Positions 7,236-63,944 of a stretch of 64,000 bases of DNA are shown here, in pieces. Source of the stretch: Spirochaetales bacterium Spiro_02 (GTDB lineage Bacteria; Spirochaetota; Spirochaetia; Sphaerochaetales; Sphaerochaetaceae). The position numbers and the translations under genes were made by a program. Within the stretch, counting starts at the first letter, position 1, and each line of letters opens with the position of its first letter. The stretch lies in the NCBI GenBank assembly GCA_001604275.1, contig LVBD01000035.1, positions 1-64,000 of the forward strand. The letters run 5' to 3'. The notes under the pieces are model-generated. The model was not told where the DNA came from, did not search any database, and saw nothing but the letters and a program-made list of their open reading frames with translations.

Positions 7236-7276
7236 ACGAATTCCTTCTATGTCTCGCGACATATATGCGTTGTATT

Positions 7277-7933
7277 TCATTGCTGGAGACACTCCTCCAG
7301 TTTTTCACGATCCACGATGACCAGCTGAGTCCCTTCGGTTCGGATCGCACCGACTTCCTGGAGGGAAGACAGTTCCCGATACAGGGCCGCCCTGCTGATG
7401 CCCAGACGAAGGGAAAGGGATTCCTTGGTCGCCACGAACAACTCTTCCCCACCATCCTCGGATGAAGCGAGAAGGAATCCGGCGAGTTTCGCCCGCGACG
7501 AATTCAATGAAAGCTGCTCGATGCGTCGGATCAGAAATTGGATTTTCTTATTGCACAATCGAGCGTATGCCGCCATTGCCTCCGGATGACGGAGCAACGC
7601 ATCTCGCAAGACGGCTTTCCTGATGAACAGCAGCTCGCACTCAGTCCTGCACTGGAGCACCGTACGCAGTTCATCGTCATCGAACAGATTCGAAATTCCG
7701 AACATGTCGCCCTGCGACAATGTTGTCAGAAGCACTTCGTTCCCATCCATGGAAACGCTGTAGACATCGACGTTTCCCGATCGCACCAGCACTACGCCCG
7801 GAGTCTCCCCGATCCGATCCTCCACAAGCCGACCACGGGGATACCGCATGGAAGCCGACTCTTCAAGATGTATCCCGCAGGCTGCGAGCAATCGGGAGGA
7901 AACACTTCCTCCATGAGATTCACTAGCTTTCAT
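7277..7933 (-). CDS. Crp/Fnr-family transcriptional regulator
   Basis: 218 residues: an N-terminal cyclic-nucleotide-binding-like beta barrel (GNVDVYSVSMDGNEVLLTTLSQGDMFG) and a C-terminal Crp-type HTH (SLSLRLGISRAALYRELSSLQ). There is no Cys cluster of the FNR type. ATG 7933 is preferred; TTG 7945 is in frame, and neither has a clear SD. It is divergent from the GTPase operon at 8089 and upstream of the importer. Palindromes at 7948-7967 and 8026-8039 are candidate binding sites. Confidence 0.85.
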   Translation of the reverse strand: MKASESHGGSVSSRLLAACGIHLEESASMRYPRGRLVEDRIGETPGVVLVRSGNVDVYSVSMDGNEVLLTTLSQGDMFGISNLFDDDELRTVLQCRTECELLFIRKAVLRDALLRHPEAMAAYARLCNKKIQFLIRRIEQLSLNSSRAKLAGFLLASSEDGGEELFVATKESLSLRLGISRAALYRELSSLQEVGAIRTEGTQLVIVDREKLEECLQQ

Positions 7934-7947
7934 CTGAGCATCCAAAT

Positions 7948-7967
7948 AAGTTAAATAAAACTAACTT
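7948..7967. promoter_or_regulatory. Inverted repeat in front of the Crp-type regulator gene
   Basis: AAGTTA-N8-TAACTT, 20 bp, just upstream of the regulator start. Size and spacing suit a dimeric HTH protein. Autoregulation is inferred only. Confidence 0.45.
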
Positions 7968-8025
7968 TATGCTCATGATAGTATAGCAGGATACGATTAA
8001 TCAAGAGCATATTCTCAGCATAACC

Positions 8026-8039
8026 GTCTCATATGAGAC
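8026..8039. promoter_or_regulatory. Perfect palindrome upstream of the GTPase operon
   Basis: GTCTCAT-ATGAGAC, a 14-bp perfect palindrome. A TATAGA hexamer at 8060-8065 could be the -10 box. The palindrome would then be centred near -40, the position of a class II Crp/Fnr activator site. The regulator gene is the divergent neighbour. Confidence 0.5.
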
Positions 8040-8088
8040 AATCATTAAATAAATGTTGATATAGACTAACAGAAAAGGGAACTACGGA

Positions 8089-8790
8089 ATGAAACGAATC
8101 ATCATGGTAACCGGAGGATCCGCGGTCGGAAAGACTGCGTTTCTGCAAGCGACGATCCCCTATCTGACCTCCTGCGGACAATATTGCTGCGTCTGCAAGA
8201 TGGACTGTCTGCAGAGCGACGACCAGAAGACATACCGACGGCTCGGAATACCATGCGTCACCGGACTGAGCAACGACATCTGCCCAGACCATTTTCTCGT
8301 ATCGAACCTTCCGGAACTCTGGAACTGGGCGACGGACAGCAAAGCCGATTTTCTGTTCATCGAAAGTGCGGGGCTCTGCCACCGCTGTTCTCCAGCCACG
8401 GAAAAAACCGCCGCACTCTGCGTCCTTGACGCTACGGCGAGCAGTCGGTCTCCAAGCCGGCTCGGGCCGATGCTGACGCAGGCTGACGCCATCGTCATCA
8501 CGAAAATCGACATGATTTCGCAGGCCGAGCGAGAGATCATCGCCCATCAAGTGGCGGAACTCAATGAACAGGCTGCAATGTTCTTCGTCGACGGAAGGGA
8601 AGGCTACGGAGCGGAACTTGTCGGAGACTGGTTGCTCGCGCTTCCCGCCATCACCACATACGAGAACGACCTGCTTCGGCACACAATGCCCAGCGGAGTC
8701 TGCTCCTATTGCGTCGGAGAACGCAGAGTTGGGAGTGATTTCCAGCTCGGAGTGGTGGGAAAAATCGATTTTTCGGAGGCCGCCCGATGA
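8089..8790 (+). CDS. HypB/UreG-like SIMIBI GTPase with two CxxC motifs
   Basis: 233 residues. P-loop GGSAVGKT at about 9-16, Walker-B-like FLFIESAGLCHRCSP (contains CxxC), guanine-specificity motif TKID, and a C-terminal CSYCVGERRVG with a second CxxC. HypB and UreG GTPases load nickel into enzymes, and this protein shares their core but lacks a His-rich tail. It starts a three-gene unit with 4-bp overlaps. A role in inserting a metal or metallocofactor is inferred; I do not recognise an exact family. Confidence 0.7.
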   Translation: MKRIIMVTGGSAVGKTAFLQATIPYLTSCGQYCCVCKMDCLQSDDQKTYRRLGIPCVTGLSNDICPDHFLVSNLPELWNWATDSKADFLFIESAGLCHRCSPATEKTAALCVLDATASSRSPSRLGPMLTQADAIVITKIDMISQAEREIIAHQVAELNEQAAMFFVDGREGYGAELVGDWLLALPAITTYENDLLRHTMPSGVCSYCVGERRVGSDFQLGVVGKIDFSEAAR

Positions 8791-9545
8791 CCAATCTTTC
8801 CATCCTTCCGGGAAAGGACCGAGTCGGGAAAGCGGAATGTTTCGACGAAATCCGACTCGAACGGGGAAATCTCTATTCGATCGTCGGCAGCACAGGTTCC
8901 GGCAAAAGCCGCTTGATCAAGGACATCGAACAACTGGTCGACGGCGATTCGATCACCGGCCGAAGGATCCTGCTCGACGGACAGCCTGTCGGCAAGGAGC
9001 GGAGGAACAGGCTGTCAAACTCACTCATCGCCCATCTGGGGCAGAACATGAAATTCGTTCTCGACATCAGCATCGAACAATTCATCGGACAACACGCATC
9101 TGCGAGAGGACTCCCCACACACGTGCGGGACTCGCTCGCGGAGCGGGTCATCGCCACAGCAAACAGAATCACGCAGGAACCGATTTTCGCGGAGTTGCAA
9201 CTCAGCGCCCTGAGCGGAGGACAGAGCCGAGCGCTGATGGCAAGCGATATCGCCCATATTTGCGACAGTCCCGTGGTATTGATCGATGAGATAGAGAATG
9301 CCGGAATCGACAAGCACGAGGCTCTCCAGGCGCTGGTCGGAACGGAAAAACTGGTACTGCTGGTCACCCATGACCCGCATACCGCGCTCATGGCGGGAAT
9401 GCGGATCGTTCTGGACCATGGCGGAATCGTGAGGACGGTCGAACGAGACGAGCAGGAACAGCGGTTGTTCCTGGAGCTGGAGACGAACTACCGGAACCAG
9501 ACGACTCTCCAGCAACGGTTGAGAAGAGGAGAACATCTGGCATGA
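8787..9545 (+). CDS. Soluble ABC-type ATPase of unknown function
   Basis: 252 residues. Walker A GSTGSGKS (about 33-40), ABC signature LSGGQSRAL, unusual Walker B VVLIDEIENAGIDKHEAL and H-loop VTHDPH. The DEIEN sequence differs from the DEP of transport ATPases, and no permease gene is in the unit. It overlaps the GTPase and the next gene by 4 bp each (ATGA), implying a complex made in fixed ratio. It may act with the GTPase in a maturation or reactivation step rather than in transport. Confidence 0.7.
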   Translation: MTNLSILPGKDRVGKAECFDEIRLERGNLYSIVGSTGSGKSRLIKDIEQLVDGDSITGRRILLDGQPVGKERRNRLSNSLIAHLGQNMKFVLDISIEQFIGQHASARGLPTHVRDSLAERVIATANRITQEPIFAELQLSALSGGQSRALMASDIAHICDSPVVLIDEIENAGIDKHEALQALVGTEKLVLLVTHDPHTALMAGMRIVLDHGGIVRTVERDEQEQRLFLELETNYRNQTTLQQRLRRGEHLA

Positions 9546-10471
9546 CCAAGATCGTGATGTATTGGAATAATATCTGCGTCCTTCATCGGAGGGAACTGTC
9601 GCATCTGGCGCATTGCAAGGAAGTGCTTGCAAGACAGGACATCGATCTACAGGCGACCTGCTTCGGGCTCGGGTATCCCCGACACATGTCCGACTATCTG
9701 CGCGATCCTGATCCGATACTGCCGGATATCATCGTCAGCGCCGATCTGGAGGTATTCGAGGACCGGAGGATATTCCGCCACATGGAAACGGATCTACTCC
9801 CGATCCGGCAGTGGTATGACACAAAATCCGACGAAGGCGTTCCGACAGTGGATCTTGGCGAGAAGTTGCTTCCGTACCTGATCATCCCGCTGGTATTCTA
9901 CAGTCACGATACATCCTGCGACGTTTCCGCGAGCTTGGAACAGGTGGCCGCCGAAGGGCGTGAGATCGCATTCGGCGGCATCAACAATTCGGCTGCGAAA
10001 TCCGTGGTGAAGACCGTCTGGAGTCGATACGGACGGGACATGGCATCAACGCTGTTCCGACGAGCGGTCGTTACCGGAATGCCGGTGCAATCGTTCCAAC
10101 TGGCAAAGACGGACGCCGTTCCGCTGGCGCTGGTACCGTCCCTGTTCGCCGTGAACACGACAGAAGGGATCGCATTCTGCCCAAATGACGGCGCGGTGGC
10201 GGTACCGTCCTACATATGTGTCAGGAATTCGATCGGACGGAAAACCGCCTCGAAGGTCCTCGACTTGCTGTTCGAGCCGGCATTCCTGCGATTCTTCGTA
10301 GAACAAGGAAATCTGATCTCGGCGCTCAAGGGCAGCCCTCCGCAACCGTGGATGGAACGTCGCGGCTCGAAACTTCAGATAACGACACCCAAGTGGCTTG
10401 ACGAAACACATCCTCAAGACTTCTACCGCTTCTATTGCGAACATATTCCTGCCGCGGACCGGCATGATTGA
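9542..10471 (+). CDS. Periplasmic-binding-protein-like protein without signal peptide
   Basis: 309 residues starting KIVMYWNNICVLHRREL, so there is no signal peptide or lipobox and the protein should stay in the cytoplasm. Segments such as PDIIVSADLEVFEDRRIF and LLPYLIIPLVFYSHD resemble the two-lobe fold of ABC binding proteins (type 2). Cys and His in the first 25 residues (CVLH, CKE) could be ligands. It is the last gene of the unit with the GTPase and ABC ATPase. No known function recognised. Confidence 0.65.
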   Translation: MTKIVMYWNNICVLHRRELSHLAHCKEVLARQDIDLQATCFGLGYPRHMSDYLRDPDPILPDIIVSADLEVFEDRRIFRHMETDLLPIRQWYDTKSDEGVPTVDLGEKLLPYLIIPLVFYSHDTSCDVSASLEQVAAEGREIAFGGINNSAAKSVVKTVWSRYGRDMASTLFRRAVVTGMPVQSFQLAKTDAVPLALVPSLFAVNTTEGIAFCPNDGAVAVPSYICVRNSIGRKTASKVLDLLFEPAFLRFFVEQGNLISALKGSPPQPWMERRGSKLQITTPKWLDETHPQDFYRFYCEHIPAADRHD

Positions 10472-51115: not shown

Positions 51116-53206
51116 TTATACGTAGAAGAGCAAATCGCCGTAAGTCGGATACGGCCAGTACTTCGTACCGACCAGCGTTTCCAACTCATCTGCCACCGCA
51201 CGCACTTCGTTCATGCTCGACAACACGTCGTTGTGATAGAACCGGGCGCTTTCTTCGACCTCGGAAATGCCGCTGACACGGAGGATGGCGGCATCAAGCT
51301 CCTCTAGCTTCCGACAGAGACTGTCGGACAACACGGAAAGCTGTTTGACCAGATTGACTTCCGTCTCGCATGCCAGTTCCGGACAAAGCTGCTTCTTCTT
51401 CAACGCAGACTTGCTCAGTTCCTCGCTATAGGAAACGACAGCCGGCAACACCTGCTTCCGCACCATCTCCATCATGGTCTGGGCCTCGATGTTGATCGTC
51501 TTGCAATAACTCTCCATCAGCAACTCGTAGCGACTATGCATCTCGGCGGCAGTAAAGATATTGAACTTCTTGAACACCTCGATATTCTTCGCCGCAATGA
51601 AGGCGGGCAACGCCTCGGGGGTGGACTTGAGATTCAGCAACCCACGTCTGGCGGCCTCCTCCTCCCACTCCTTGCTGTACCCGTTGCCGTTGAAGATAAT
51701 CCGCTTGTGGGCGGTATAGGTATCCACGACCAACTTGGACAGCGTGGCGTAGAAATCATCAGCCTTTTCGAGACTATCGGCGAATTTCGACAATTCATCG
51801 GCCACGATCGTGTTGAGCACGATGTTCGGACCGGCGACGGAGAACGTCGAACCGAGCATACGGAACTCGAACTTGTTGCCGGTGAACGCGAACGGACTCG
51901 TCCTGTTCCGGTCGGTCGTATCCTTGGGAAGGTCCGGCAACACATGGACGCCCAGACTCATCGCAGTCTTGGACCGCCCGCCGCACTTGCGGCCATTGGC
52001 GAGAGAATCGAGCACATCCGCAAGGTCATCGCCAAGGAACATCGATACGATCGCGGGAGGAGCCTCGTTGGCACCGAGACGATGATCATTGCCGGCACTC
52101 GCAACGGAGACTCGGAGCAAATCCTGATACTCATCGACGGCCTTGAGCACCGCCACAAGGAACAACAGGAACTGCGCGTTCTCTTCCGGGGAATCACCGG
52201 GCTCGAGAAGATTTTCACCGGAATCGGTGGAAATGGACCAGTTGTTGTGCTTGCCGGAACCATTGACACCGGCAAACGGTTTTTCATGGAGCAAACAAGC
52301 CAAGCCGTGCTTGTCGGCGATCTTCTTCATCAGCTCCATCGTCAGCTGATTATGGTCGCTGGCGATATTGGTCGTACTGAAAATCGGAGCCAGCTCATGC
52401 TGGGCGGGGGCGACTTCGTTGTGACGGGTCTTGGCCAGGACGCCGAGCTTCCACAGCTCATGGTCGAGATCGTTCATGAAAGCGGCCACCTTCGGGCGAA
52501 TCGCACCGAAGTAATGGTCCTCCATCTCCTGCCCCTTCGGAGGCTTGGCACCGAGCAATGTCCGACCGCAGTAGATCAGGTCCTTGCGCTTGCTATACAT
52601 TTCCTTGTCGATCAGGAAGTACTCCTGCTCGGGGCCGACGGTGGTGATGACCCGCTTGACACTGTCCTTACCGAACAGCTTCAGAATCCGTACCGCCTGG
52701 TCGCTGAGAGCTTCCATGGAACGGAGAAGCGGCGTCTTCTTGTCGAGCACTTCGCCGGTATAGGAGCAAAAAGCGGTCGGAATGCACAGCACCCCTTCCT
52801 TAATGAACGCATAGCTTGTGGGATCCCAAGCGGTATATCCGCGGGCCTCGAATGTGGCGCGCAGACCGCCCGAAGGGAAGGAAGAGGCATCAGGTTCGCC
52901 TTTGACGAGCTCCTTGCCGGAGAACTCCATGATGACCTGACCGTCTTTGGTGGGGGAAATGAAACTTTCCTGTTTTTCGGCTGTGATACCGGTCATGGGC
53001 TGGAACCAGTGGGTGAAATGGGTACACCCGCGTTCGATCGCCCAATCTTTCATGGCATTCGCAACGACATTGGCGACATTGATATCAAGGTCCTTCCCCT
53101 CGCCGATCGTCTTTTTCAACGCTTTGTAGGTATCCTTCGGCAGGCGTTCACGCATCGCTTTGTCGTTGAACACCAGCGAACCGAAATAATCAGCTACACT
53201 TTCCAT
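51116..53206 (-). CDS. glnN: Glutamine synthetase type III (GlnN)
   Basis: 696 residues, the length of GSIII. Conserved GSIII blocks: [80 protein letters not shown]. Forms glutamine from glutamate, ammonia and ATP. ATG 53206 follows GGGGAGG; an in-frame extension of 14 codons is rejected. The promoter lies at 53513-53540, more than 300 nt upstream, with a terminator hairpin immediately after it. Confidence 0.95.
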
Positions 53207-53456
53207 ATTTCCTCCCCGTACCGTAGGTACTTCTGGTATAGGTTTCACATTTCTTCAATCGGGGGCATCTGGCGTTTCGACAACCCTGTCTTGAAGCAGG
53301 GAGCCGAAAGCCACTGTTGCCACCCAAACCGATCTGCACACACCCTGTCGTTGCTTAGGAGGTAGTACATGGATCGGAAAACAAACTCATCATCGGCGCG
53401 GGACGTCAGGAGCATCATCGTTCGCCGCGCCGAATCCGATACAGCCAAAGGCAAAC
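53207..53456 (-). other. Long glnN 5' leader
   Basis: 250 nt between the early terminator and glnN ATG. It contains one open frame (53454-53245, 69 codons) without a good ribosome site. No riboswitch class was recognised. It may carry the elements that control read-through. Confidence 0.4.
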
Positions 53457-53496
53457 AAAAAAGGCGCCGTAGACCGAAACGGCCTACAGCGCCTTT
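53457..53496 (-). terminator. Promoter-proximal terminator in the glnN leader
   Basis: Near-perfect minus-strand hairpin AAAGGCGC-GTAG-CC...GG-CTAC-GCGCCTTTTTT with a 3-nt AAA-complement loop and T-run. No gene precedes it on this strand, so it can only act on the transcript starting at the promoter 10 bp upstream, i.e. on glnN. Confidence 0.88.
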
Positions 53497-53744: not shown

Positions 53745-53773
53745 TAGACAGGACGATGGCGATGGTATATAGT
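53745..53773 (+). promoter_or_regulatory. Promoter of the FecCD-type importer operon
   Basis: TAGACA (53745-53750), 17-bp spacer, TATAGT (53768-53773). Confidence 0.7.
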
Positions 53774-53776
53774 CCT

Positions 53777-53796
53777 TTATGTACAAAAAAACATAA
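53777..53796. promoter_or_regulatory. Inverted repeat over the transcription start of the FecCD-type operon
   Basis: TTATGT-N8-ACATAA, directly after the -10 box and ending at the first base of the start codon. A metal- or cofactor-responsive repressor could bind here, or it could form a hairpin at the 5' end of the message. Confidence 0.5.
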
Positions 53797-54863
53797 TGGA
53801 AGACATGCAGAACAGCCCATCTCCGATCCCATCTCAGTCTCAGCAAGTCGCATCCGGCGTCTGCCGCCAAGGAAGCCGGGTCGCTTTGCTGGGGCTTCTG
53901 TTCGCGGCCTGCTTCATCCTCTCGTTCTCCATCGGCCGATTCCCCATCTCGCCTGTACAGGTGGTACGGGTTCTCCTGAGCCGGATATTCCCGTTGGAAC
54001 AGACCTGGACGAAACAGATGGAGATCGTCATGCTCAATGTCCGTCTCCCGCGGATCATCGCCGCGGCACTCATCGGGGCGGCGCTTTCGGTATCGGGCAG
54101 CGTCTATCAAGGAATCTTCAAGAACCCGATGGTTTCTCCCGACATCCTCGGATCTTCGGCCGGTGCAGGATTCGGAGCGGCGTTGGGGATATTCATAGGA
54201 TTCGGGTATCTGGGAATCTCGCTTTCATCGTTCCTCTTCGGGCTGGCCGCTGTTCTGATGGCGTGCGCCGCATCGGTCAAGTTCAAGGAGAATCCGATGC
54301 TCGGCCTGATTTTGGCCGGCATCATGATCGGGTCGCTGTTCTCCGCCGCCACATCGTTCCTGAAGCTGGTCGCCGATCCTACGAACCAGCTGCCGGCGAT
54401 CACGTACTGGCTCATGGGAAGCCTCGCTTCGATCCGGATGAGCGATGTCAAGCTGCTGTTCCCCACGATGCTGCTGGCGGCTGTCCCGCTGTACCTGATC
54501 CGCTGGAGGCTCAATCTGCTGACGCTGGGGGAGGACGAGGCAAAATCGCTGGGGATCAACACATGGGCGCTTCGGGCGATCACGATCCTCTGCACCACGG
54601 TCCTGACCTCCGCGAGCGTCGCAGTCAGCGGCCTGATCGGTTGGGTCGGCTTGGTGATCCCCCACTTCGCCCGAAAAGCGGTCGGACCGGACTTCCGCTA
54701 CCAATTGCCGGCGAGCATGTTCATCGGCGCTTCGTTTCTGATCCTTGTCGACGATATCGCCAGAATCCTGGCCACGAGCGAGGTTCCGATCGGCATTCTC
54801 ACCGCATTCGTCGGAGCACCCTTCTTCCTCCACCTGATCATGCGAGGAGGCAAGGAGTCATGA
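53796..54863 (+). CDS. FecCD-family ABC transporter permease
   Basis: 355 residues, about ten membrane segments. GAALSVSGSVYQGIFKNPMVSPDILGSSAGAGFGAALG and GLIGWVGLVIPHFARKAVGPDFRYQLP are the FecCD/BtuC signatures. Importers of this type carry iron-siderophores, cobalamin, haem or molybdate (MolB). ATG 53796 or 53805; neither has a clear SD. The Se/Mo maturation genes next door favour molybdate or tungstate (inference). Confidence 0.85.
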   Translation: MEDMQNSPSPIPSQSQQVASGVCRQGSRVALLGLLFAACFILSFSIGRFPISPVQVVRVLLSRIFPLEQTWTKQMEIVMLNVRLPRIIAAALIGAALSVSGSVYQGIFKNPMVSPDILGSSAGAGFGAALGIFIGFGYLGISLSSFLFGLAAVLMACAASVKFKENPMLGLILAGIMIGSLFSAATSFLKLVADPTNQLPAITYWLMGSLASIRMSDVKLLFPTMLLAAVPLYLIRWRLNLLTLGEDEAKSLGINTWALRAITILCTTVLTSASVAVSGLIGWVGLVIPHFARKAVGPDFRYQLPASMFIGASFLILVDDIARILATSEVPIGILTAFVGAPFFLHLIMRGGKES

Positions 54864-55648
54864 ACATCTCGGTCAACGGCATCAGCTTCGCATATGGAAC
54901 CCACCAAGTACTCGAGAATATCGATTTCACCCTCACCCCCGGGCATCTGACATTCCTCCTCGGACCGAACGGCAGTGGCAAGAGCACCCTGTTCAAATGC
55001 ATGCTCGGACACCGCAGACCGCAGGCAGGCGCCGTATCGCTGGACGGCATGCCGACGACGGGCATGTCCCCCGCCGAGCTCGCCCATCGGATCGCATACA
55101 TCCCGCAGATATCGACGCCGACATTCAACTACACGGTGCTGCAAGCGGTGCTGATGGGTCGTACCGCCCATATGAAACTATTCTCGACCCCGTCGGCGCA
55201 GGACATCAGGATCGCATACGAAGCGCTGGAACGGCTGGGCATCAGGCATCTGGCCGACAAAGGCTCCAACCAGATATCGGGCGGGGAACAGCAGCTGGTG
55301 CTGATCGCACGGGCGTTGGCCCAGCAGGCGCAGGTCATCATCATGGACGAACCGACGTCGAGCCTCGACTACGGCAACCAGCTGATGGTACTTTCCCAGA
55401 TGAAATCGCTCTGCCAGGACGGCAAACTGGTGTTCCTCTCATCGCACAACCCCCAGCATGCCATGGCGTATGGGGACGATGTGCTCGTCCTCTACCGGGG
55501 AAAGGTATGGCGTCACGGCACGCCGCAGGAAGTCATCACACGGGAAATGATCCATCAAGTATACCATGTCGATGTCGCGATTCTCCAGTACACTGACGAC
55601 GCAGGACAGGTACGGCACATGGTCGCTCCGATCCAAGGAGGGCGCTGA
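54860..55648 (+). CDS. FecE-type ABC transporter ATP-binding protein
   Basis: 262 residues. Walker A GPNGSGKST, signature ISGGEQQLVLIARAL, Walker B VIIMDEPTSSLD and H-loop SSHNPQHA (Asn in place of the usual Asp after His). Overlaps the permease by 4 bp (ATGA) and the methyltransferase by one base (TGATG). Confidence 0.88.
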   Translation: MNISVNGISFAYGTHQVLENIDFTLTPGHLTFLLGPNGSGKSTLFKCMLGHRRPQAGAVSLDGMPTTGMSPAELAHRIAYIPQISTPTFNYTVLQAVLMGRTAHMKLFSTPSAQDIRIAYEALERLGIRHLADKGSNQISGGEQQLVLIARALAQQAQVIIMDEPTSSLDYGNQLMVLSQMKSLCQDGKLVFLSSHNPQHAMAYGDDVLVLYRGKVWRHGTPQEVITREMIHQVYHVDVAILQYTDDAGQVRHMVAPIQGGR

Positions 55649-56436
55649 TGTACCGGTGGACGGAAGAAAAGCTTCGATGGATGATGGCTGCAAACAGGCG
55701 AATTCCGTTATATCAGGACATCATATCGCAATTTAATGACATTATCGGGCAAGATGCCGTTGTCTGCGACGCAGGATGCGGACCCGGAGGACTGAGCCTT
55801 GCCTTGGCGCGATACGTCAAGGAAGTCGTGGCGGCGGATACCGATGCACGGGCGATTGAACTGCTGGAGCGGGAACGGCAACGCCTCGGACTTTTGAACA
55901 TAACGCCGATATGCGCCGACATTTTCTCCGACAAGATCGCCGAACGATTCGACGTCATGGTCTTCTGCCGGTTCGGACAGATCAAGGATATCCTCCCGAC
56001 AGCCTACCGCTACGACTGTTCGCATCTGGTCGTCGTCAAACAGAACAACCGCCGACATCGATTCGATTTTTCGCAGATGGAGAATGGGAGGAATTCCTTC
56101 GCCAGCCTGCTTGACCAGATCTCCACGCTGGACATTCCGTTCATCGTCAGGGAAGGCTCCTTCGAATCGGGGCAACCGTTCACATCGCTGGACGACGCGC
56201 GAAGATTCTTCGCCGCCTACGACAAAAGCGGAACAGGAGGGAACCTGAGCGACGAAGCGCTGCTCGAGCGTCTCTTCCTAGTGGATGATGCTGCATATCC
56301 GTTTTTTCTTCCCGCGACGGAAGATTTGGGAATCGCCATTTGCAAGCTACGACCTGCCGGAAAGGATCAAATAGGAAGCATGGGGGCTTCCGGTTCTTCC
56401 GGCGAAAAAATATCATTGCAAGGAGAGTTTCTATGA
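55648..56436 (+). CDS. Class I SAM-dependent methyltransferase within the importer operon
   Basis: 262 residues. SAM-binding motif I VCDAGCGPGGLSLAL (about 38-52), acidic end of beta2 in VVAADTDARAI, then PICADIFSD. Its stop overlaps the start of the binding-protein gene (ATGA), so it is embedded between transporter genes at overlap spacing. It may modify the imported compound or a chelator; the substrate is unknown. Confidence 0.8.
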   Translation: MYRWTEEKLRWMMAANRRIPLYQDIISQFNDIIGQDAVVCDAGCGPGGLSLALARYVKEVVAADTDARAIELLERERQRLGLLNITPICADIFSDKIAERFDVMVFCRFGQIKDILPTAYRYDCSHLVVVKQNNRRHRFDFSQMENGRNSFASLLDQISTLDIPFIVREGSFESGQPFTSLDDARRFFAAYDKSGTGGNLSDEALLERLFLVDDAAYPFFLPATEDLGIAICKLRPAGKDQIGSMGASGSSGEKISLQGEFL

Positions 56437-57530
56437 AAAAGAACAGCATGATCAGACCGTTGATCGTCATCGGCCTGTTGCTGTGCCTGTTGTCCCCGCT
56501 CTGGGCGCAACCCAGTTATGAAACGGCGCCGACCACAGCCGAAGCGCCGCAGACGATCCTGTTCACCGATTCAACGGGTCGGGAAGTCGAACTTCCTGCG
56601 AATATCACAAGGGTGGCTCCCAGCGGGCCTGCCGCACAGATGATCCTCTACTCGCTCGCACCCGATTCCTTGATCGGATGGGGGACGAAGCCGAGCGAAG
56701 TGCAGAAACAGTACATGGACGAAAAGTACTGGAGCCTTCCGGTCTTCGGACAGTTCTACGGCAAGAGCAACACGCTGAACCTCGAGGCGCTCATCGAAGC
56801 CGATCCGCAGGTGATCATCGACCTAGGCGACAAGAAGGCGAGCCATAAGGAAGACATGACCGGGGTACAGGAACAGACCGGTATCCCGACGATCTTCATC
56901 GAAGCGAACCTCAACACCTTCCCCGACGCATACCGCAAGCTCGGAAAGCTGCTGGGCAAAGAAGAGAAAGCCGAGCAGATCGCCCAATATATCGAGCGGA
57001 CGGTCGCCATGGCGAAGGAAAACGCTGCGAAGATCCCCGAAGACCAGCGAGTATCCGTCATGTTCGGCACCGGGCCGACCGGATTGGATGTCAATGCGAA
57101 GAATTCGATCCATGCCGACGTCATCGATGTCATCGGCGCCGTGAACGCCATCGAAGTGCCCAACGTCAGCAGCAAGGGAGGCGGCAATACGATCAACATG
57201 GAACAGCTGATGATGTTCGATCCCGATGTCATCCTCTTCAACGAAGGAGGCCCGTACCAGACTGTCGCGGACGATCCGCTGTGGCAGGGACTGAGCGCCA
57301 TTACCGAAGGCCGGTACTATGAAATTCCAAGCGCTCCGTACAACTGGCTGGCGAGCCCTCCGTCCGTCAACCGGATCATCGGCATCCCATGGCTGGGCAA
57401 TCTGGTATACCCCCAGCTGTACGATCTGGACATGGTCGCCGAAGCGCAGAAGTTCTATTCGCTGTTCTGGCACTACGATCTGAGCGAAGCGGAGGCGAAA
57501 GCGCTGCTGAAGAACTCCACGCTCAAATAA
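56433..57530 (+). CDS. FecB/MolA-like ABC transporter substrate-binding protein
   Basis: 365 residues, signal peptide ending PLWAQPSYE. Cluster A-II fold: TILFTDSTGREVELPANITRVAPSGPAAQMILYSL, EADPQVIIDLGDK, and FDPDVILFNEGGPYQTVADDPLWQGLSAITEGRYYEIPSAPYNW. The last motif (PxGPYNW type) is common in molybdate/tungstate or cobalamin-related binding proteins. RBS AAGGAGAG before ATG. Convergent with yqeB. Confidence 0.83.
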   Translation: MKKNSMIRPLIVIGLLLCLLSPLWAQPSYETAPTTAEAPQTILFTDSTGREVELPANITRVAPSGPAAQMILYSLAPDSLIGWGTKPSEVQKQYMDEKYWSLPVFGQFYGKSNTLNLEALIEADPQVIIDLGDKKASHKEDMTGVQEQTGIPTIFIEANLNTFPDAYRKLGKLLGKEEKAEQIAQYIERTVAMAKENAAKIPEDQRVSVMFGTGPTGLDVNAKNSIHADVIDVIGAVNAIEVPNVSSKGGGNTINMEQLMMFDPDVILFNEGGPYQTVADDPLWQGLSAITEGRYYEIPSAPYNWLASPPSVNRIIGIPWLGNLVYPQLYDLDMVAEAQKFYSLFWHYDLSEAEAKALLKNSTLK

Positions 57531-57547: not shown

Positions 57548-58363
57548 CTACCTCGACCTGAGGAACCCGTCCACAGCTTCAAGGACTGCGCCGGCGACGG
57601 CCCGGGCCTTGTCGCTGACCGAATGAACGAACTCCCGGTTTCCTCTTGGATCGACATCGCCGACCTTGAAGCCGGGAGTCACTTCTATTCCGTCATGGAG
57701 CAAGCCACGCAACACCCCGTCGATCGTGGCAAGAACCGGCTGACCATCTCCATCCTCCCCATCGGGAGGAGCGACCATGGCGACGACCTCCCCCGCCCCG
57801 ACCATGTCGCCGATACGATGGTCGGAGGTAAAGACACCGGCGCATGGAGAACGAAGCACCCGATCCGCACCATGGCCGGCGATGATGCCGGGAATGCCGG
57901 TATTTGCGGCGGCAGTCCCTTCCCGGATGATCGTACCGAGATAATGGCCCCGCTGGGTCTCCACCACGCAGTGGCAATCCACCCCGGCACGGAAGCCCGG
58001 ACCAAGGGCTACGACGAACGGAGCCATCGTGATCCGGGTGCCGAGGTTCCGCTTGGCGAGGATCGCATCGACAAGGACGACGGGATGGAACGCCTCGATC
58101 GTCTCGCCCTTTGGATCGGCCAGGACCGGAACGAGACCCGACGTCATGGCGCTCATCGCCGCAGGAACGCTCTCCACCCGTACGGCACGCACCCCTTCCA
58201 CGGCACAGGCTCCTTCGAACAACGCTTCGGCGAACGATACGGTACGGCGGATCACCGTCGGACGCTCAACGTCCAGCGCCACCACCATCAGCCCGGCGTT
58301 ATGCAACCTCAAGATAGTTCCGGTAGCAAGATCTCCCGCGCCACGTACCACTACGATATCCAT
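57548..58363 (-). CDS. yqeB: Selenium-dependent molybdenum hydroxylase maturation protein YqeB (EF2563 family)
   Basis: 271 residues. N-terminal VVVRGAGDLATGTILRLHNAG nucleotide-binding segment, central GPGFRAGVDCHCVVET with conserved Cys/His, and C-terminal biotinyl-like hammerhead (SPCAGVFTSDHRIGDMVGAGEVVAMV). Members occur only with SelD and Mo hydroxylases. Start overlaps the yqeC end by 13 bp. Confidence 0.9.
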   Translation of the reverse strand: MDIVVVRGAGDLATGTILRLHNAGLMVVALDVERPTVIRRTVSFAEALFEGACAVEGVRAVRVESVPAAMSAMTSGLVPVLADPKGETIEAFHPVVLVDAILAKRNLGTRITMAPFVVALGPGFRAGVDCHCVVETQRGHYLGTIIREGTAAANTGIPGIIAGHGADRVLRSPCAGVFTSDHRIGDMVGAGEVVAMVAPPDGEDGDGQPVLATIDGVLRGLLHDGIEVTPGFKVGDVDPRGNREFVHSVSDKARAVAGAVLEAVDGFLRSR

Positions 58364-59100
58364 TTCGTCCCTCCATATATCCTATCCAGCTGTACTGAAA
58401 CGTACAGATATTCGTCGCCGATAGCATCCATAGCTTTCTCCAGTCGATCGGCGGACAGCAGATCACATTGATTGAGCAACACGAAACCGCGGCGTGAATC
58501 CCCATGGTCGGAGAATCCTTTGCGAAGTCCCTCGTCGATATCCAGAAACCGCCGTATCGTCCGCTCGGAAACGACCGCATCCGTATCGCCGGTCGCCTTC
58601 CGGTACTCCTCGCAATTGTAGACGACACGCTCCAGCGGTTCGTCCAAAGCCCCCATGCCGGCCAGTGCGATCACATCGGTGGAGAACGACGGAATCACAG
58701 GATCCCATGGGTGATGATATTTCAACGGCAGGCCACGCGAACCGTCGGCTTCCATGAGCACCACATCGAAGTCCTTCGCCAAGCGGGCAAGTTCCGCAAG
58801 ATCGGGGGAACAGACCTTGCGCCGATTCGTCCGTCCGTCATCGAACGTCCGGGCGTAGAACACCCGTCTGCCGGGTTCGGCGCATATGCCGTCGGTCGAA
58901 TCGAGGAATATCGAATCGCATCCATAGTCGAGTTCATATGGACTGCGCAGTTTCGTCGTGGTGGTGATCAGGACCGAACGCCCCCTTGAGGCATATTCAA
59001 CGCCCAGAGCGATCATCAGCGAGGTCTTGCCCCCGCAGCCGGTAATGGCCACCCGAGGGCGAAAATCGAGCAGTCCCGTCAGACATGCCGTCAATCCCAC
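58351..59100 (-). CDS. yqeC: Selenium cofactor biosynthesis protein YqeC
   Basis: 249 residues. P-loop VAITGCGGKTSLM near the N-terminus, VLITTTTKL, DVVLMEADGSRGLPLKYHHPWDPVIP and VLLNQCDLL match YqeC. It is required with SelD for the Se-labile Mo cofactor. Start is a GTG, either 59100 (1 nt after the selD stop) or 59112 (overlapping selD, 13 nt after AGGAG); no ATG is near. Confidence 0.85.
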   Translation of the reverse strand: MGLTACLTGLLDFRPRVAITGCGGKTSLMIALGVEYASRGRSVLITTTTKLRSPYELDYGCDSIFLDSTDGICAEPGRRVFYARTFDDGRTNRRKVCSPDLAELARLAKDFDVVLMEADGSRGLPLKYHHPWDPVIPSFSTDVIALAGMGALDEPLERVVYNCEEYRKATGDTDAVVSERTIRRFLDIDEGLRKGFSDHGDSRRGFVLLNQCDLLSADRLEKAMDAIGDEYLYVSVQLDRIYGGTKWIS

Positions 59101-59101
59101 G

Positions 59102-60163
59102 CTAGAGGACACGGACGTGGACTTTCTCCTGTGCCGCAGTCCGAGGGACGGTCGCACCCTCCACCCGGCCGATCCGGACGGCCGACGGCATCCGCCTTTC
59201 GTAGATATCCGCCTCATCGGCGGCCATGGAAAGCAACAGCCCGCCGGAAGTCTGGGGATCGTAGAGGACATCGATCAGATTCTGCGGAACCGACGGGTCG
59301 AACCGCACATGGGGACCTGCGAAATCGCGGTTGTTGTACATTCCTTCAGGGATGATCCCCATCGAAGCAAGCTCCAGGACGTCGGGCATCAGCGGCACCT
59401 CCGTCGAGTCGATGACCAACGTGACGGAGCTTCCCTGGGCCATCTCCAGTCCATGGCCGAGCAGACCGAAGCCGGTAATGTCGGTACATGCGTGGACATC
59501 CAGACCTTCGGCGGCTTCCTTGGCCGCCCGATTGAGGGTGGTCATCCAGCCGATGACGGCCTGCTTCGCGTCATCGCTCGCCATATCGGCCTTGATCGCC
59601 GTATTGAGGATGCCGGCGCCGAGCGGTTTGGTCAGAACCAGGACATCGCCCGGCCGCGCTCCCGTATTGCGCCAGACACGGGTCGGGTCGGCGAACCCGG
59701 TGACGCACAGACCGTACTTGGGGGTAGGATCGGCGATGGTATGCCCGCCGGCGACGATCGCCCCCGCTTCCTTGACCTTGGAATATCCCCCTTCGAGGAT
59801 CCGTTGCATGACGGAGATATCGAGACAGGAGGGAAAGCACAACAGGTTCATCGCCACGGCGGGGGTCCCTCCCATGGCATAGATATCGGACAAAGCGTTC
59901 GCCGCGGCCACCTGACCGAACACGAACGGATCATCGACCATCGGAGGGAAGAAATCGACGGTCTGGATCATTCCGGTACGCTCGTCTATCTTGTATACCA
60001 GCGCATCGTCGGCGCTCTCGAATCCTACGAGCAGGCGACCATCCGGTTCAAATTTCGGAAGCTCGTCGAGCACGGACCGGAGCAACGACGGAGCGAGCTT
60101 CGCCGCACAACCGGACGTCTTGACCAACGACGTCAGCCGCACCGCTTCATCTTTCGTTTCCAT
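59102..60163 (-). CDS. selD: Selenide, water dikinase (selenophosphate synthetase)
   Basis: 353 residues. Active-site region TSGCAAKL gives Cys (not selenocysteine) and Lys; FPPMVDDPFVFGQVAAANALSDIYAMGG and GGHTIADPTPKYGLCVTG are ATP-binding blocks. It makes selenophosphate from selenide and ATP. GGGAGG precedes ATG 60163. No selA, selB or tRNA-Sec was seen here, so it probably serves the Se cofactor and perhaps selenouridine. Confidence 0.93.
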   Translation of the reverse strand: METKDEAVRLTSLVKTSGCAAKLAPSLLRSVLDELPKFEPDGRLLVGFESADDALVYKIDERTGMIQTVDFFPPMVDDPFVFGQVAAANALSDIYAMGGTPAVAMNLLCFPSCLDISVMQRILEGGYSKVKEAGAIVAGGHTIADPTPKYGLCVTGFADPTRVWRNTGARPGDVLVLTKPLGAGILNTAIKADMASDDAKQAVIGWMTTLNRAAKEAAEGLDVHACTDITGFGLLGHGLEMAQGSSVTLVIDSTEVPLMPDVLELASMGIIPEGMYNNRDFAGPHVRFDPSVPQNLIDVLYDPQTSGGLLLSMAADEADIYERRMPSAVRIGRVEGATVPRTAAQEKVHVRVL

Positions 60164-60164
60164 A

Positions 60165-60422
60165 TCATTTCCTCCCGTCGATCCGCTGGGCATGCTCCCC
60201 TTCTATGCGGAACACCCCATCGAGAGCATCATCATCGAACCCGAGATCCCAAGTCTCCGCTTCGAATCGGACACACGTTCCGCACGACGAGCTGAGAAAC
60301 CGGGGAACCGGCATCATTTTGCTCGCCACCCCGTGTTCCTTGCAATATCGGTTGAACGAGACCGCGCCGTAATGGGTGAAGAACGTTGCGATGAACACCG
60401 ACATCGGCCTTCCGTCACTCAT
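60165..60422 (-). CDS. DUF3343 protein (selenium-associated)
   Basis: 85 residues; ATFFTHYGAVSFNRYCKEHG and PRFLSSSCGTCVRFE with a CxxC-like pair match DUF3343, a small family tied to SelD/YedF genes. Overlaps yedF by 8 bp. It might carry selenium or act in redox delivery (inference). Confidence 0.8.
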   Translation of the reverse strand: MSDGRPMSVFIATFFTHYGAVSFNRYCKEHGVASKMMPVPRFLSSSCGTCVRFEAETWDLGFDDDALDGVFRIEGEHAQRIDGRK

Positions 60423-60654
60423 GAGTCAGTACCAGTCGGTACTCGCCCGGCGAGGTCTCGATGGACTCGACGGCATAGCCGCTGTGGGCCGCATACCGAG
60501 TTACGTTTTCCAACGCCGCCCGATGGTTGACCAGCACGACCAGTTCCTTCAGGCCGGTATCGGTGACCCGCTTGGTCATGATGACCGGCTGGGGACACGG
60601 AAGCCCCCGGGCGTCGATTTCCTTCAGATTCCTTGTTTCCAGAGTTTCCTGCAT
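60415..60654 (-). CDS. yedF: TusA/YedF-type sulfur (selenium) carrier protein
   Basis: 79 residues. TusA fold with the active Cys in DARGLPCPQPVIMTK. Full-length YedF proteins carry an additional C-terminal DsrE domain, which is missing here; DUF3343, encoded next door, may replace it. It likely carries selenium from YedE/desulfurase toward SelD. Confidence 0.85.
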   Translation of the reverse strand: MQETLETRNLKEIDARGLPCPQPVIMTKRVTDTGLKELVVLVNHRAALENVTRYAAHSGYAVESIETSPGEYRLVLTHE

Positions 60655-60666
60655 GACGATACTCTC

Positions 60667-61722
60667 CTATTCCTGCTTCGTATTGGCGACGGCGATGATG
60701 ACCAGCACGACCAATGCGACGATCGTCGCGACCTGCCCGCGCACCGTCGGACCGGCGGCGGAAGAGGCCAGGCCGAAGTTGTGGGAGAACGCTCCGCCCA
60801 TCAACAGACCGACGACAGTGATCGCGCTATCGGTATTCCCTTCTCCCGCCAAGATCATCTGCCGAAGCGGACAACCGCCGAGCAACGTACAACCGAATCC
60901 GACGACCGACATGCCCAGGAAGTTCCACAGTCCGTCGGTATGGGCGATCGGCTGATCGGCGAACCCCGGATGGAAAGAGCCTGTGGCGAGATTGAGGATC
61001 AGGATGGTGACGAAGATCGAGACAAATCCGGTGAGCAACGTCCAGTCCTTGAACAGGATCGCATCCCGGATGCCCCCGATCATGCACAGCCTCGTCCGCT
61101 GGGAAAGCGCTCCGACTATCAGACCCGCAGCAAGGGAGGCGACCAGCGGAGCATGCTGGGAGCCGGGACCGGAGACGCTGAAGAACAGCATCGTCGGAAT
61201 GAATACCATGATGGACAGCAGCACGATGTTGATCGCCGGAAGGGCGATGCCTTCGAGCGAAGGAAGATTGAAGTTCCGGCCCAAAGAGAAACCGCGGTTG
61301 AGGAACAGCACCCCCACCCAGATTCCTGCGGAGAACCCGAACAGGGCGACCAGTGCGTTGAGATCGCCGCCGGCGAGACGGATGATCATCCGGAACGGAC
61401 AGCCCAGGAACACCAGCGCCCCGATCATCACGAAGAATCCGATGACGAACCGAAGCATCGGCGATGATCCGCCTCGTGGGGAAAACTCCTTCTTCCACAG
61501 CGCCACGACGAACGAACCCAGCAACAGTCCGATGACTTCCGGGCGCACATACTGGACCGCTTCGGCGCGGTGCAGACCGACTCCGCCCGCGATATCGCGG
61601 ACAAAACAGGCAATGCAGAACCCCATGTTCTTCGGATTGCCCAAGAGCACGAGGACGAACGATATCGCGCCGATAATAACACCGGCGACCAGCAGTCGCT
61701 TCTGTTCCTTCGAGAAAGTCAT
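60667..61722 (-). CDS. yedE: YedE-type putative selenium transporter (YeeE/YedE family)
   Basis: 351 residues, about nine to ten membrane segments with conserved Cys in MGFCIACFVRDIAGG, VFLGCPFRMI, TRLCMIGGIRD and LLGGCPLRQMI, the YedE pattern. GGAGGACAGT precedes ATG 61722. First gene of the run yedE-yedF-DUF3343-selD-yqeC-yqeB. Function as a selenium importer is a family prediction. Confidence 0.88.
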   Translation of the reverse strand: MTFSKEQKRLLVAGVIIGAISFVLVLLGNPKNMGFCIACFVRDIAGGVGLHRAEAVQYVRPEVIGLLLGSFVVALWKKEFSPRGGSSPMLRFVIGFFVMIGALVFLGCPFRMIIRLAGGDLNALVALFGFSAGIWVGVLFLNRGFSLGRNFNLPSLEGIALPAINIVLLSIMVFIPTMLFFSVSGPGSQHAPLVASLAAGLIVGALSQRTRLCMIGGIRDAILFKDWTLLTGFVSIFVTILILNLATGSFHPGFADQPIAHTDGLWNFLGMSVVGFGCTLLGGCPLRQMILAGEGNTDSAITVVGLLMGGAFSHNFGLASSAAGPTVRGQVATIVALVVLVIIAVANTKQE

Positions 61723-61759
61723 ACTGTCCTCCAAACCATATCAGCAATTCAGCAAGGAC

Positions 61760-61788
61760 ATCGTACCATTGTTCATCAAAATGCGCAA
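61760..61788 (-). promoter_or_regulatory. Promoter of the selenium operon
   Basis: On the minus strand TTGCGC (61788-61783), 17-bp spacer, TACGAT (61765-61760). Confidence 0.75.
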
Positions 61789-61823
61789 TGGATTTTTTCC
61801 ATACTCCGTGTTACCTTTGTTTC

Positions 61824-62960
61824 ATGGACCGAATATATCTGGATACTGCCAGCACAAGCTTTCCCAAGGCGCCGGGCGTCGCCGAGGCCATGGCGAATTT
61901 CATTCTTTCCAATGGCTGCAACATCAACAGGGGCGGCTATGCGCAAGCCTACGAAGCGGAGGAACTTGTGTTCGACACCAGGGAGAGGATCGCCTCCCTG
62001 TTCGATTTCCCCAAACCCGACCATGTCGTCTTCACCGCCAATGTGACCACTGCGCTGAATTTCATCATCAAAGGGCTGTTCGGGCGGGGCGATCATGTGC
62101 TTGTCACGTCGATGGAGCATAACGCCGTCATGCGTCCGTTGGTCCAGATGGAACGGCATGGGGTGTCGTTTTCGCGCATTCCGTGTACGTCACGGGGGGA
62201 GCTCGAGACAGAGACGATCGAATCGCTGATCAAGACAAACACCAAGGCGATCATCATGACCCATGCCTCGAACGTCTGCGGTACGGTGATGCCGGTCGCC
62301 GAAGTTGCCCGGATCGCCCATCGGCATGGGCTGTATCTGGTCGTCGATGCCGCCCAGACGGCGGGAATCTTGCCGATCGACATGCAGGCGATGGGGATCG
62401 ACATACTCTGTTTCACCGGGCACAAAGGACTAGGAGGCCCTCAGGGAACGGGAGGCTTTCTGATCTCGGAAGCGCTTGCCCAGCGGATTGAACCGTTGAT
62501 CTCCGGGGGAACCGGATCGATGAGCGACAGCGAGGAAGTCCCCGTATGGCTTCCCGACCGGTTCGAGGCGGGGACGATGAACCTCCCCGGGATCGCGGGA
62601 CTCCATGCGGCGCTGGATTCCATCCGGTACGACCGGCATGAGGATCTGTCTGCGCTGTTCCTTGAAGGTCTGCGGAACATCGCAGGAGCCAAGCTCGTCG
62701 GAAGGGACGGAACCGATGGACGGCTCGCCGTGTTCGGCGTCGATTTCCCCGACCACGACAACGCATATATCGCGGCGGCGCTGGAGGAACGGTACGCGAT
62801 CATGACCCGTGTCGGCCTGCACTGCGCCCCGAACGCACATAAGACGCTGGGGACGTTCCCCAAGGGGCTCGTCCGGTTCTCGTTCGGACCGGCGACGACG
62901 GAAACGGAGATAGAGACGACGCTCGCCGCGCTCAGATCGATTCTGAATGCCGGCAAATGA
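61824..62960 (+). CDS. Cysteine desulfurase-family protein, EF2568 type
   Basis: 378 residues, class V aminotransferase fold. YLDTASTSFPKAPGV start, ASNVCGTVMPV, VVDAAQTAGILPID, PLP lysine in CFTGHKGLGGPQGTGG, and RVGLHCAPNAHKTLG with the Cys loop. This matches the EF2568 family that occurs with the Se-dependent Mo hydroxylase genes, probably supplying S or Se to the Mo cofactor. ATG 61824 has no SD. Confidence 0.88.
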   Translation: MDRIYLDTASTSFPKAPGVAEAMANFILSNGCNINRGGYAQAYEAEELVFDTRERIASLFDFPKPDHVVFTANVTTALNFIIKGLFGRGDHVLVTSMEHNAVMRPLVQMERHGVSFSRIPCTSRGELETETIESLIKTNTKAIIMTHASNVCGTVMPVAEVARIAHRHGLYLVVDAAQTAGILPIDMQAMGIDILCFTGHKGLGGPQGTGGFLISEALAQRIEPLISGGTGSMSDSEEVPVWLPDRFEAGTMNLPGIAGLHAALDSIRYDRHEDLSALFLEGLRNIAGAKLVGRDGTDGRLAVFGVDFPDHDNAYIAAALEERYAIMTRVGLHCAPNAHKTLGTFPKGLVRFSFGPATTETEIETTLAALRSILNAGK

Positions 62961-62993
62961 CGTGTGTCCACAGGACACAGAGGAGACGATTGC

Positions 62994-63944
62994 ATGGAGA
63001 ATCATATTTTTTCACAAATCGAACAGGGACCGGTCACCCTCTTTACCTATACGGAAGGGCCCCATGCGGGAGAAACGTTTCAACCAGAGACGGGGTTCGA
63101 CATTCCCGCGCTTCCGGCTCTGTTCGACTATCATGGGACGCAGGCGTTCGGCGAACAGCTTGCCTTGCAGAAACGGATCGTCGTGTTCGGATGCGGGCAC
63201 GTCGGTGCGGCGTTGTATCGGTTGGCGCGGTTCGCCGATTATCCGGTGACGATGGTCGACGACCGTCCGGAGTTCGCGAACCAGGAGCGGTTTCCCGAAG
63301 CGACGGTGATCTGCCAACCGTTCGAGCAGGTGTTCACCCCCGGACGGTTCGGTTCCCAGGACTGTCTGGTAATCCTTACCCGAGGGCATTCGTTCGATGC
63401 ATACTGCCTGGAGCAGTCGCTCAAGGAGCCGCACGCCTACATCGGCATGATCGGTAGCGGCACGAAGGTGGCCGCTACCCGCAAGAAGTTGCTGGATACA
63501 GGTATCGACAAGGCTCTGCTCGACAGCGTATACGCCCCGATCGGGCTACCCATCGGCGCGAACACGCCACAGGAGATCGCCATTTCGATCATCGCCCAGA
63601 TCATGCAGGCTACCGGCAAGGGCAAGCACGTGGGAGAATGCCCCGTAGAGGTGTTCAAAGCGATCGAAGAACGGTCCGAACCGGGGGTCGAGGTCGTCAT
63701 CGTCGAACGCAGCGGTTCGGCCCCCCGATCGACGGGAAGCCGGATGTTCGTCACCTCGCGCACATTGGAAGGAACGGTCGGTGGCGGTGCGATAGAATCG
63801 CAAGCGATCGACTATGCCCGCCAGATGCTTCGGGATGGGTCGGGAGCCTGCACGAAGCATTATTCGCTGACCAACAGTGGCGCACAGAGCATCGGCATGA
63901 TCTGCGGGGGAGCCGTGACGCTGTTGTTCATTCCGCGAAAGTGA
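62994..63944 (+). CDS. xdhC: XdhC/CoxI-family Mo-hydroxylase maturation factor, inverted domain order
   Basis: 316 residues. The Rossmann (XdhC_C) domain is N-terminal: KRIVVFGCGHVGAALYRLARFADYPVTMVDDRPEF, AYIGMIGSGTKVAATR and APIGLPIGANTPQEIAISIIAQI. The CoxI/XdhC_N-like domain is C-terminal: ERSGSAPRSTGSRMFV and GTVGGGAIESQAIDYA. In XdhC of many bacteria the order is reversed. XdhC binds and sulfurates the Mo cofactor and hands it to the hydroxylase. GAGGAG precedes ATG 62994. Confidence 0.88.
   Translation: MENHIFSQIEQGPVTLFTYTEGPHAGETFQPETGFDIPALPALFDYHGTQAFGEQLALQKRIVVFGCGHVGAALYRLARFADYPVTMVDDRPEFANQERFPEATVICQPFEQVFTPGRFGSQDCLVILTRGHSFDAYCLEQSLKEPHAYIGMIGSGTKVAATRKKLLDTGIDKALLDSVYAPIGLPIGANTPQEIAISIIAQIMQATGKGKHVGECPVEVFKAIEERSEPGVEVVIVERSGSAPRSTGSRMFVTSRTLEGTVGGGAIESQAIDYARQMLRDGSGACTKHYSLTNSGAQSIGMICGGAVTLLFIPRK

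Follow-up and report, generated by a model that had tools for sequence, protein, structure and literature searches.

A FecBCD-type importer operon with an embedded methyltransferase is linked to molybdenum cofactor genes in three bacterial phyla

What does an importer operon that encodes its own methyltransferase bring into the cell, and on what does the methyltransferase act? We addressed these questions for an operon of Spirochaetales bacterium Spiro_02 (Sphaerochaetaceae), found at positions 53745-57530 of a 64,000-nucleotide stretch of contig LVBD01000035.1 (assembly GCA_001604275.1), the whole of which we call the window. Its four genes encode a FecCD-type permease, an ABC ATPase, a class I S-adenosylmethionine (SAM)-dependent methyltransferase (MT), and a binding protein (SBP). 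They form a genuine operon, overlapping at every junction as a preliminary description of this DNA had noted: read in the DNA, permease and ATPase share ATGA, ATPase and MT share TGATG, and MT and SBP share ATGA. Permease, ATPase, and a PF01497 SBP are encoded together, all over their cut-offs, which makes this a FecBCD/BtuCD-type (type II) importer, and the gene set is beyond chance because the same set recurs in other phyla. We consider it probable that the operon is a MolBC-like molybdenum (Mo) importer feeding the maturation of Mo hydroxylases, with an MT that works in the cytoplasm on the cofactor or its insertion machinery. This reading draws on gene order, protein families, conserved linkage, gene fusions, riboswitch placement in relatives, and the SBP clade; the cargo, the methyl acceptor, and the role of an associated NTPase are its conditional parts. 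Mo supply is well supported by sequence comparison for the importer family and, by orthology, for the window. The SBP would capture an oxyanion or simple complex, and the permease and ATPase would transport this cargo inward—molybdenum, most likely in the form of molybdate. Inside the cell it would feed assembly of the Mo cofactor (Moco) for Mo hydroxylases of the xanthine-oxidase family, probably selenium (Se)-dependent in this host. The cotranslated MT and its partners, XdhC and (among relatives) NTPase_1, would act on the cofactor or insertion machinery rather than on an extracellular ligand.

How consistently does the MT occur with the importer and with Mo genes? A survey of its neighborhoods, proposed in the preliminary description, was run on the genomes of 84,980 species with one peptide pattern derived from the MT alignment alone, followed by tblastn, a scan that misses more divergent members. 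It yielded 24 loci (designated by L numbers) in Spirochaetota, Bacillota, and Chloroflexota. Permease, ATPase, and SBP are present in the stretch around the MT in 19 of the 24, and 20 contain at least one of XdhC, a MocA-like protein, YqeB/YqeC, MoaA, MoaC, MoeA, and a molybdopterin-binding or Mog protein. With the Moco riboswitch, which adds L076 and L085, 22 of the 24 loci have a Mo gene (mostly XdhC) or this RNA; the other two are L064, a 3.2-kb contig, and L084, where only an NTPase_1 domain, fused to the MT, was found. The refuting result named in the preliminary description, linkage of the MT to unrelated transporters, did not turn up in the scanned stretches; the one further Mo-type transporter next to it is ModABC, with ModAB-type genes in L066, L077, and L078 (the L077 ModA is a PF13531 protein).

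Names were checked with Pfam on representative proteins for XdhC (PF13478 and PF02625), NTPase_1 (PF03266), MoeA, MoaA, the ModA-type SBP, the MobA-like NTP transferase, FmdE, and Crp-type regulators. ModA, ModB, and MoaC of L066 and Mog of L083 were named by reading or mutual matches, as was a dimethyl sulfoxide reductase-type protein of L085 that enters neither the count of 20 nor that of 22. L075 is counted through its own MocA-like gene, MocA matches elsewhere being short, and several Mo-gene query proteins came from loci that were afterwards searched. Some loci share contigs (L062 = L048, L063 = L046, L064 = L047, L065 = L045, L069 = L044, L073 = L049, and L084 = L055), and L050 (cut MT), L047/L064 (cut SBP), and L056 (MT a near copy of the L055 MT) were each omitted from at least one of the alignments.

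The linkage also holds in the host family and in a second sample. All seven host-family MT matches at E ≤3e-25, the window's included, adjoin the same permease and ATPase. Another 22 weaker matches bring the list to 29; seven of these were kept for adjoining importer genes (L008, L012, L013, L014, L018, L019, and L024) and, being chosen by context, are excluded from the counts of 24, 8, and 7; the remaining 15 were judged to be different MTs. Among 295 genomes from the order of the Flavonifractor plautii genome, 8 carry the MT, and seven of their loci are new. The importer is present in five of the seven and a Mo gene or Moco riboswitch in six (Mo genes in L145-L148 and L150; the riboswitch and an FmdE-type gene in L149). 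MT-positive genomes are also enriched in the Mo hydroxylase domain PF02738, which occurs in 15 of 17 of them (10 of the 17 coming from the 24-locus scan) vs. 6 of 59 MT-negative genomes (P = 2e-9), the latter being second-sample genomes without an MT match at 1e-25 (G125 left out); within the 295-genome sample alone, the proportions are 7 of 8 vs. 6 of 59 (P = 1e-5). This test was moved to another order because PF02738 matches all 37 host-family genomes examined, so that co-occurrence within the host family is uninformative.

Is the importer under the control of Moco? In six Bacillota loci (L076, L085, L149, L172, L185, and L187), the Moco riboswitch RF01055 lies on the same strand 5′ of either the importer or the MT. 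With scores over the gathering cut-off, it precedes an NTPase, a permease, an ATPase/MT fusion, and an SBP in F. plautii (L076, 73.6 bits); a permease, ATPase, and SBP in Sporobacter termitidis (L085, 60.5 bits); and an MT-importer set in L149 (74.1 bits). A riboswitch search of 394 genomes found matches in 25, over the cut-off in 24. In five of the 30 riboswitch loci examined, the RNA is followed by the importer or its MT; L172, L185, and L187 among them are new and were found independently of the MT, and L185 shows only a permease fragment (44% identity) at a contig end. The P3 stem, inspected in 8 of the 30 loci plus L085, is kept in all six RNAs that precede the importer or its MT and is absent from three comparison RNAs, of which those of L178 and L200 precede MoCF/MoeA or ModA-type genes and that of L181 is divergent from a Mog gene. 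According to the portion of Regulski et al. 2008 (PMC2408646) available to us, P3-containing RNAs are tied to Mo and P3-lacking RNAs to tungsten (W) metabolism. By this published rule, P3 in all six points to Mo instead of W, and the L178, L181, and L200 riboswitches would answer to a tungsten cofactor. The earlier proposal that the importer supplies molybdate or tungstate thus stands in its Mo half, through linkage to XdhC, moa/mog, and yqeB and through the six riboswitches; its W half is disfavored by P3.

When 45 SBPs are placed in a tree, all 36 belonging to this system group in a single supported clade (100/99) that excludes the remaining PF01497 proteins sampled. The window SBP has as its sister the L148 protein (63% identity, support 100/97), encoded in a genome of the Bacillota order, and falls within a supported subclade of 11 rows (100/97) that contains L203, where the SBP gene starts ∼90 bases after a Moco riboswitch. 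At least four changes are required on this tree to account for the host family, which points to horizontal passage between spirochaetes and Bacillota. Residues R50, Y109, K135, N238, W305, and Y326 of the SBP are conserved. The predicted SBP model (predicted local distance difference test [pLDDT] 88.1) is nearest to 4pag among solved structures (Z 34.3, root-mean-square deviation [rmsd] 2.5 over 318), followed by 4hn9 (Z 28.8), 4ovk (28.6), and 2etv (26.4). The molybdate-binding MolA (3psa) is fifth by Z (26.2, rmsd 3.3 over 296, 17% identity) and is the third-best Protein Data Bank sequence match of the SBP C terminus (E 2e-7). Lower matches include Veillonella FepB (Z 24.4), YiuA (Fe; 23.6-24.3), and Helicobacter pylori CeuE (Ni; 22.0-22.4). 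The modeled structure allows molybdate as cargo without proving it.

What, then, would the MT do? Its predicted model (pLDDT 86.7) has a class I Rossmann fold (best Z 17.9, rmsd 6.3 over 169), and the GxG motif and the acidic residue at the end of β2 are kept in 29 of 29 members, which places it among class I SAM-dependent methyltransferases; the family has a GQPF motif of its own, in which Q176 is invariant. Fold is uninformative as to substrate, with at least 1,000 chains at Z ≥8 and top rows that are tied and mixed. Gene context says more: the MT directly adjoins XdhC in 13 distinct loci, and the SBP gene alone stands between them in 8 more. In six loci (L070, L077, L078, L082, L083, and L145), the MT occurs near XdhC or moa/mog genes with no importer in the stretch examined. 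In L077 and L078, it lies between mog/moaE-like genes and XdhC inside a modAB-moe-moa-mog cluster; in L070, L082, and L145, it is beside XdhC; and in L083, it follows mog. Genomes of five importer-less loci were tested for an orthologous SBP elsewhere: those of L077, L078, and L082 have one and those of L070 and L083 showed none. The L145 genome has a permease-ATPase-SBP set elsewhere, under a Moco riboswitch (L172/L202). Because the MT also occurs importer-less in such company, a role in the maturation of the cofactor in the cytoplasm is more likely than action on an imported ligand, and the suggestion that it modifies the ligand or a chelator is not upheld. The simplest reading of these contexts is that the MT would be a step in making or inserting the Mo hydroxylase cofactor. 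More tentatively, and with the odds somewhat against it, the MT, XdhC, and NTPase_1 may carry out an undescribed SAM-dependent methylation in Mo hydroxylase cofactor assembly, coupled to a type II Mo importer that is under a Moco riboswitch in several Bacillota. The target would be Moco or molybdopterin cytosine dinucleotide, its Se/S ligand precursor, or the maturation proteins.

These same contexts bear on a rival explanation, that the importer carries a metal chelate (Mo- or Fe-siderophore-like), with the MT completing or recycling the chelator. Large complexes are the usual cargo of type II importers, YiuA (with Fe and DHB-L-Arg-L-Ser) and CeuE-type proteins are among the relatives of the SBP, and the MT is with the importer in 19 of 24 loci. 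However, the six importer-less loci place the MT with Moco genes, a Moco riboswitch stands upstream in relatives, and no chelator- or metallophore-synthesis gene was recognized in the open reading frames (ORFs) read, although no systematic search for such genes was made; we regard this explanation as unlikely. A regulatory role for the MT is possible because of its fusions to the importer ATPase, at whose C terminus it is found in L076, L079, L080, and L081. The MT domain would then sense SAM or a cofactor intermediate and gate the ATPase, occupying the position that the C-terminal molybdate-binding domain has in ModC. Against this stand the free MT proteins, the importer-less loci, the SAM motif kept in all 29 members, and the fusion to NTPase_1 instead (L055 and L056), so that gating appears distinctly unlikely as an account of the MT. 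In these two loci, single 390-residue MT-NTPase_1 proteins are encoded convergent with the importer SBP gene, the L056 fusion being assigned by its length and 82% identity to that of L055.

Could the cargo be something other than Mo? Cofactors, B12 and haem among them, are known cargo of type II importers, and uptake of an intact pterin cofactor (molybdopterin or Moco salvage), processed by XdhC, NTPase, and MT, would fit Moco riboswitch control in relatives. We consider it very unlikely: Moa/Moe/Mog genes are present in the same loci (L066, L077, L078, and L083), and therefore these cells make the cofactor; moreover MolA, a relative, binds the bare oxyanion, as described in the accessible part of PMC4031551. 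Least probable of all is an ordinary iron/siderophore, haem, or corrinoid importer with coincidental Mo neighbors, a name that domain models alone would give but that linkage repeated in three phyla and the Moco riboswitch contradict; the sole cobalamin riboswitch in the loci scanned (L147) is separated from the importer by ∼5.7 kb that includes the SelD, YqeB, and YqeC genes.

Several observations weigh against a Mo importer dedicated to hydroxylase maturation. At the thresholds used, no Moco riboswitch was found in the window or host or in 10 scanned loci of the host family; hence, Mo inference for the window goes via orthology. In L149, ∼540 bases and a possible 188-residue ORF separate the riboswitch from the MT. 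In L151, the MT is accompanied neither by the importer nor by any Mo gene, and the genome is without PF02738. Queried Mo genes were found in none of the host's five further FecBCD/SBP stretches (L057-L061), but this control was small, Mo hydroxylase subunits were not among its queries, and two Mo hydroxylase genes are located ∼10 kb from one of its FecCD genes (contig C11, 65540). Four solved SBPs outrank MolA in structure (2etv among them tied), MolA is ninth by whole-protein sequence against the window SBP, and relatives of similar structural rank, YiuA and CeuE, bind Fe complexes or Ni. Finally, the host genome also encodes ModB over the cut-off, which leads us to reject the importer as the sole Mo route.

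The remaining features of the window are collected in Table 1. The promoter-like site 5′ of the operon is weak alone, as the region has five such sites vs. a shuffle mean of 2.1. A terminator-like hairpin lies between the operon and a glutamine-synthetase-like gene. Downstream, the stop codons of the SBP gene and yqeB are 17 bases apart, and yqeB, yqeC, selD, a Se/S-carrier gene, and yedE are all on the minus strand, convergent with the operon. The preliminary description placed Se/Mo genes next to the operon, and they are indeed beside it; because of their opposite, convergent strand, yqeB-yqeC-selD are neighbors in a separate transcription unit, and the window has no single unit joining them to the importer. 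SelD (with Cys in TSGC), the Se/S-carrier gene, and yedE span 59102-61734, followed on the opposite strand by an EF2568-type cysteine desulfurase gene. YqeB matches adjoin the importer operon in the window and in L048, L051, L052, L147, and L150.

Table 1. Features of the window and of related loci
Sequence	Feature	Position	Strand	Support and remarks
Window	Glutamine-synthetase-like gene	51116-53248		Name from reading only
Window	Terminator-like hairpin	53460-53496	-	17 pairs
Window	Promoter-like site	53745-53773	+	TAGACA-17-TATAGT, 10/12; consensus match only
Window	FecCD-type (type II importer) permease	53796-54863	+	PF01032, 286 bits, above Pfam cut-off
Window	Importer ABC ATPase	54860-55648	+	PF00005, 113 bits, above cut-off; ATGA overlap
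Window	Class I SAM-dependent MT, Mo-linked family, GQPF motif	55648-56436	+	PF13649 (Methyltransf_25), 38.6 bits, above cut-off; TGATG overlap
Window	SBP, N-terminal signal-like stretch	56433-57530	+	PF01497 (Peripla_BP_2), 84.7 bits, above cut-off
Window	yqeB, Se-dependent Mo cofactor protein	57548-58363	-	TIGR03309, 338 bits, over cut-off
Window	yqeC	58351-59145 (start approximate)	-	PF19842 and TIGR03172, over cut-off
Window	selD	59102-60193	-	TIGR00476, over cut-off; Cys read from sequence
Window	EF2568-type cysteine desulfurase	61788-62960	+	TIGR01977, over cut-off
Window	XdhC-family Mo hydroxylase maturation factor	62964-63944	+	PF13478, 141 bits; PF02625, 60 bits; 5.4 kb downstream of operon
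L076	Moco riboswitch	5475-5612		RF01055
L085	Moco riboswitch	5101-5247		RF01055
L149	Moco riboswitch	7580-7716		RF01055
L149	FmdE-type protein	8858-9550		PF02663, 107 bits
L147	Cobalamin riboswitch	505-703		
L055	MT-NTPase_1 fusion	7603-8775		PF03266
L056	MT-NTPase_1 fusion	7417-8589		
L066	Crp/Fnr-type regulator	7304-7987		Adjoins MT
L150	Crp/Fnr-type regulator	7243-7956		Adjoins MT
L075	MocA-like NTP transferase with C-terminal ModE-type helix-turn-helix	5281-6219		TIGR00637, 55 bits, under cut-off (ModE-type region)

Other neighbors of the system vary among loci. A Crp/Fnr-type regulator adjoins the MT in L066 and L150, and the FmdE-type protein of L149 is encoded between the MT and the importer genes, 3′ of the Moco riboswitch. 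Directly 5′ of the importer operon in L075, a MocA-like NTP transferase carries a ModE-type helix-turn-helix, a possible fusion of a Mo sensor to a cofactor nucleotidyl transferase, to judge from domain matches. The S. termitidis genome has two further FecBCD sets (L143 and L144), whose permeases share 49% and 44% identity with that of the window and whose SBPs are distant; a MoeA-type match (26%) lies near the second SBP of L143.

How does the operon compare with known systems? Among the closest is MolBC-A of Haemophilus influenzae (HI1470-1472), likewise a type II importer with a related SBP. As far as the accessible part of PMC4031551 goes, MolBC-A is a molybdate importer working beside ModBC, much as the window importer coexists with the host ModB; MolA also binds tungstate, and no mention is made of MT, XdhC, or NTPase_1 partners such as those of the window-type importer. 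ModABC, TupABC, and WtpABC likewise supply Mo or W but belong to other protein families, and DUF364 is described in the part seen of PMC2954201 as another family tied to Mo/W transport. The maturation set of Se-dependent Mo hydroxylases, yqeB-yqeC-ygfJ(mocA)-selD (Haft and Self 2008, PMC2276186), shares YqeB with the window neighborhood; the terms "methyltransferase" and "ABC transporter" are absent from the main text of that paper.

Family models offer a further parallel. NF045664 (XdhC_rel_AOR) is the best match for the XdhC proteins of L067 and the window, and NF045665 (NTPtran_DVU1551) for the L075 MocA-like protein, all under the cut-offs. NF045667 (MTase_DVU1556) matches 18 of 29 MTs at E ≤0.01 (best 1.2e-6); these matches are weak, lying below many unrelated MT families and, for the window MT, outside the best 25 of 29 families. 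The three models stem from one Desulfovibrio aldehyde-oxidoreductase cluster, in which a methyltransferase may have a parallel role. The accessible text of a Desulfovibrio vulgaris fitness paper (PMC10102598) does not mention DVU1551 or DVU1556, and that of PMC11980592, PMC5322559, and PMC11448449 has nothing on this importer-MT system. Two induced Enterocloster clusters, one with a methyltransferase and the other with molybdate transport and XdhC, are reported in PMC12771579 and may or may not correspond to this system. In the literature searched, which covered few subscription papers and others in part, no paper was seen that connects either this MT or an importer of the FecCD type with XdhC or with the Moco riboswitch.

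The operon points to a little-known route of Mo uptake that recurs in three bacterial phyla. Domain models would name such importers iron or siderophore systems, including the one of the human gut bacterium F. plautii; if they do supply Mo, the Mo economy of anaerobes with xanthine-oxidase-type enzymes would be under-read. The MT, for its part, is a concrete candidate for an unknown step in the maturation of Mo hydroxylases, enzymes whose labile-Se form is little understood to date.

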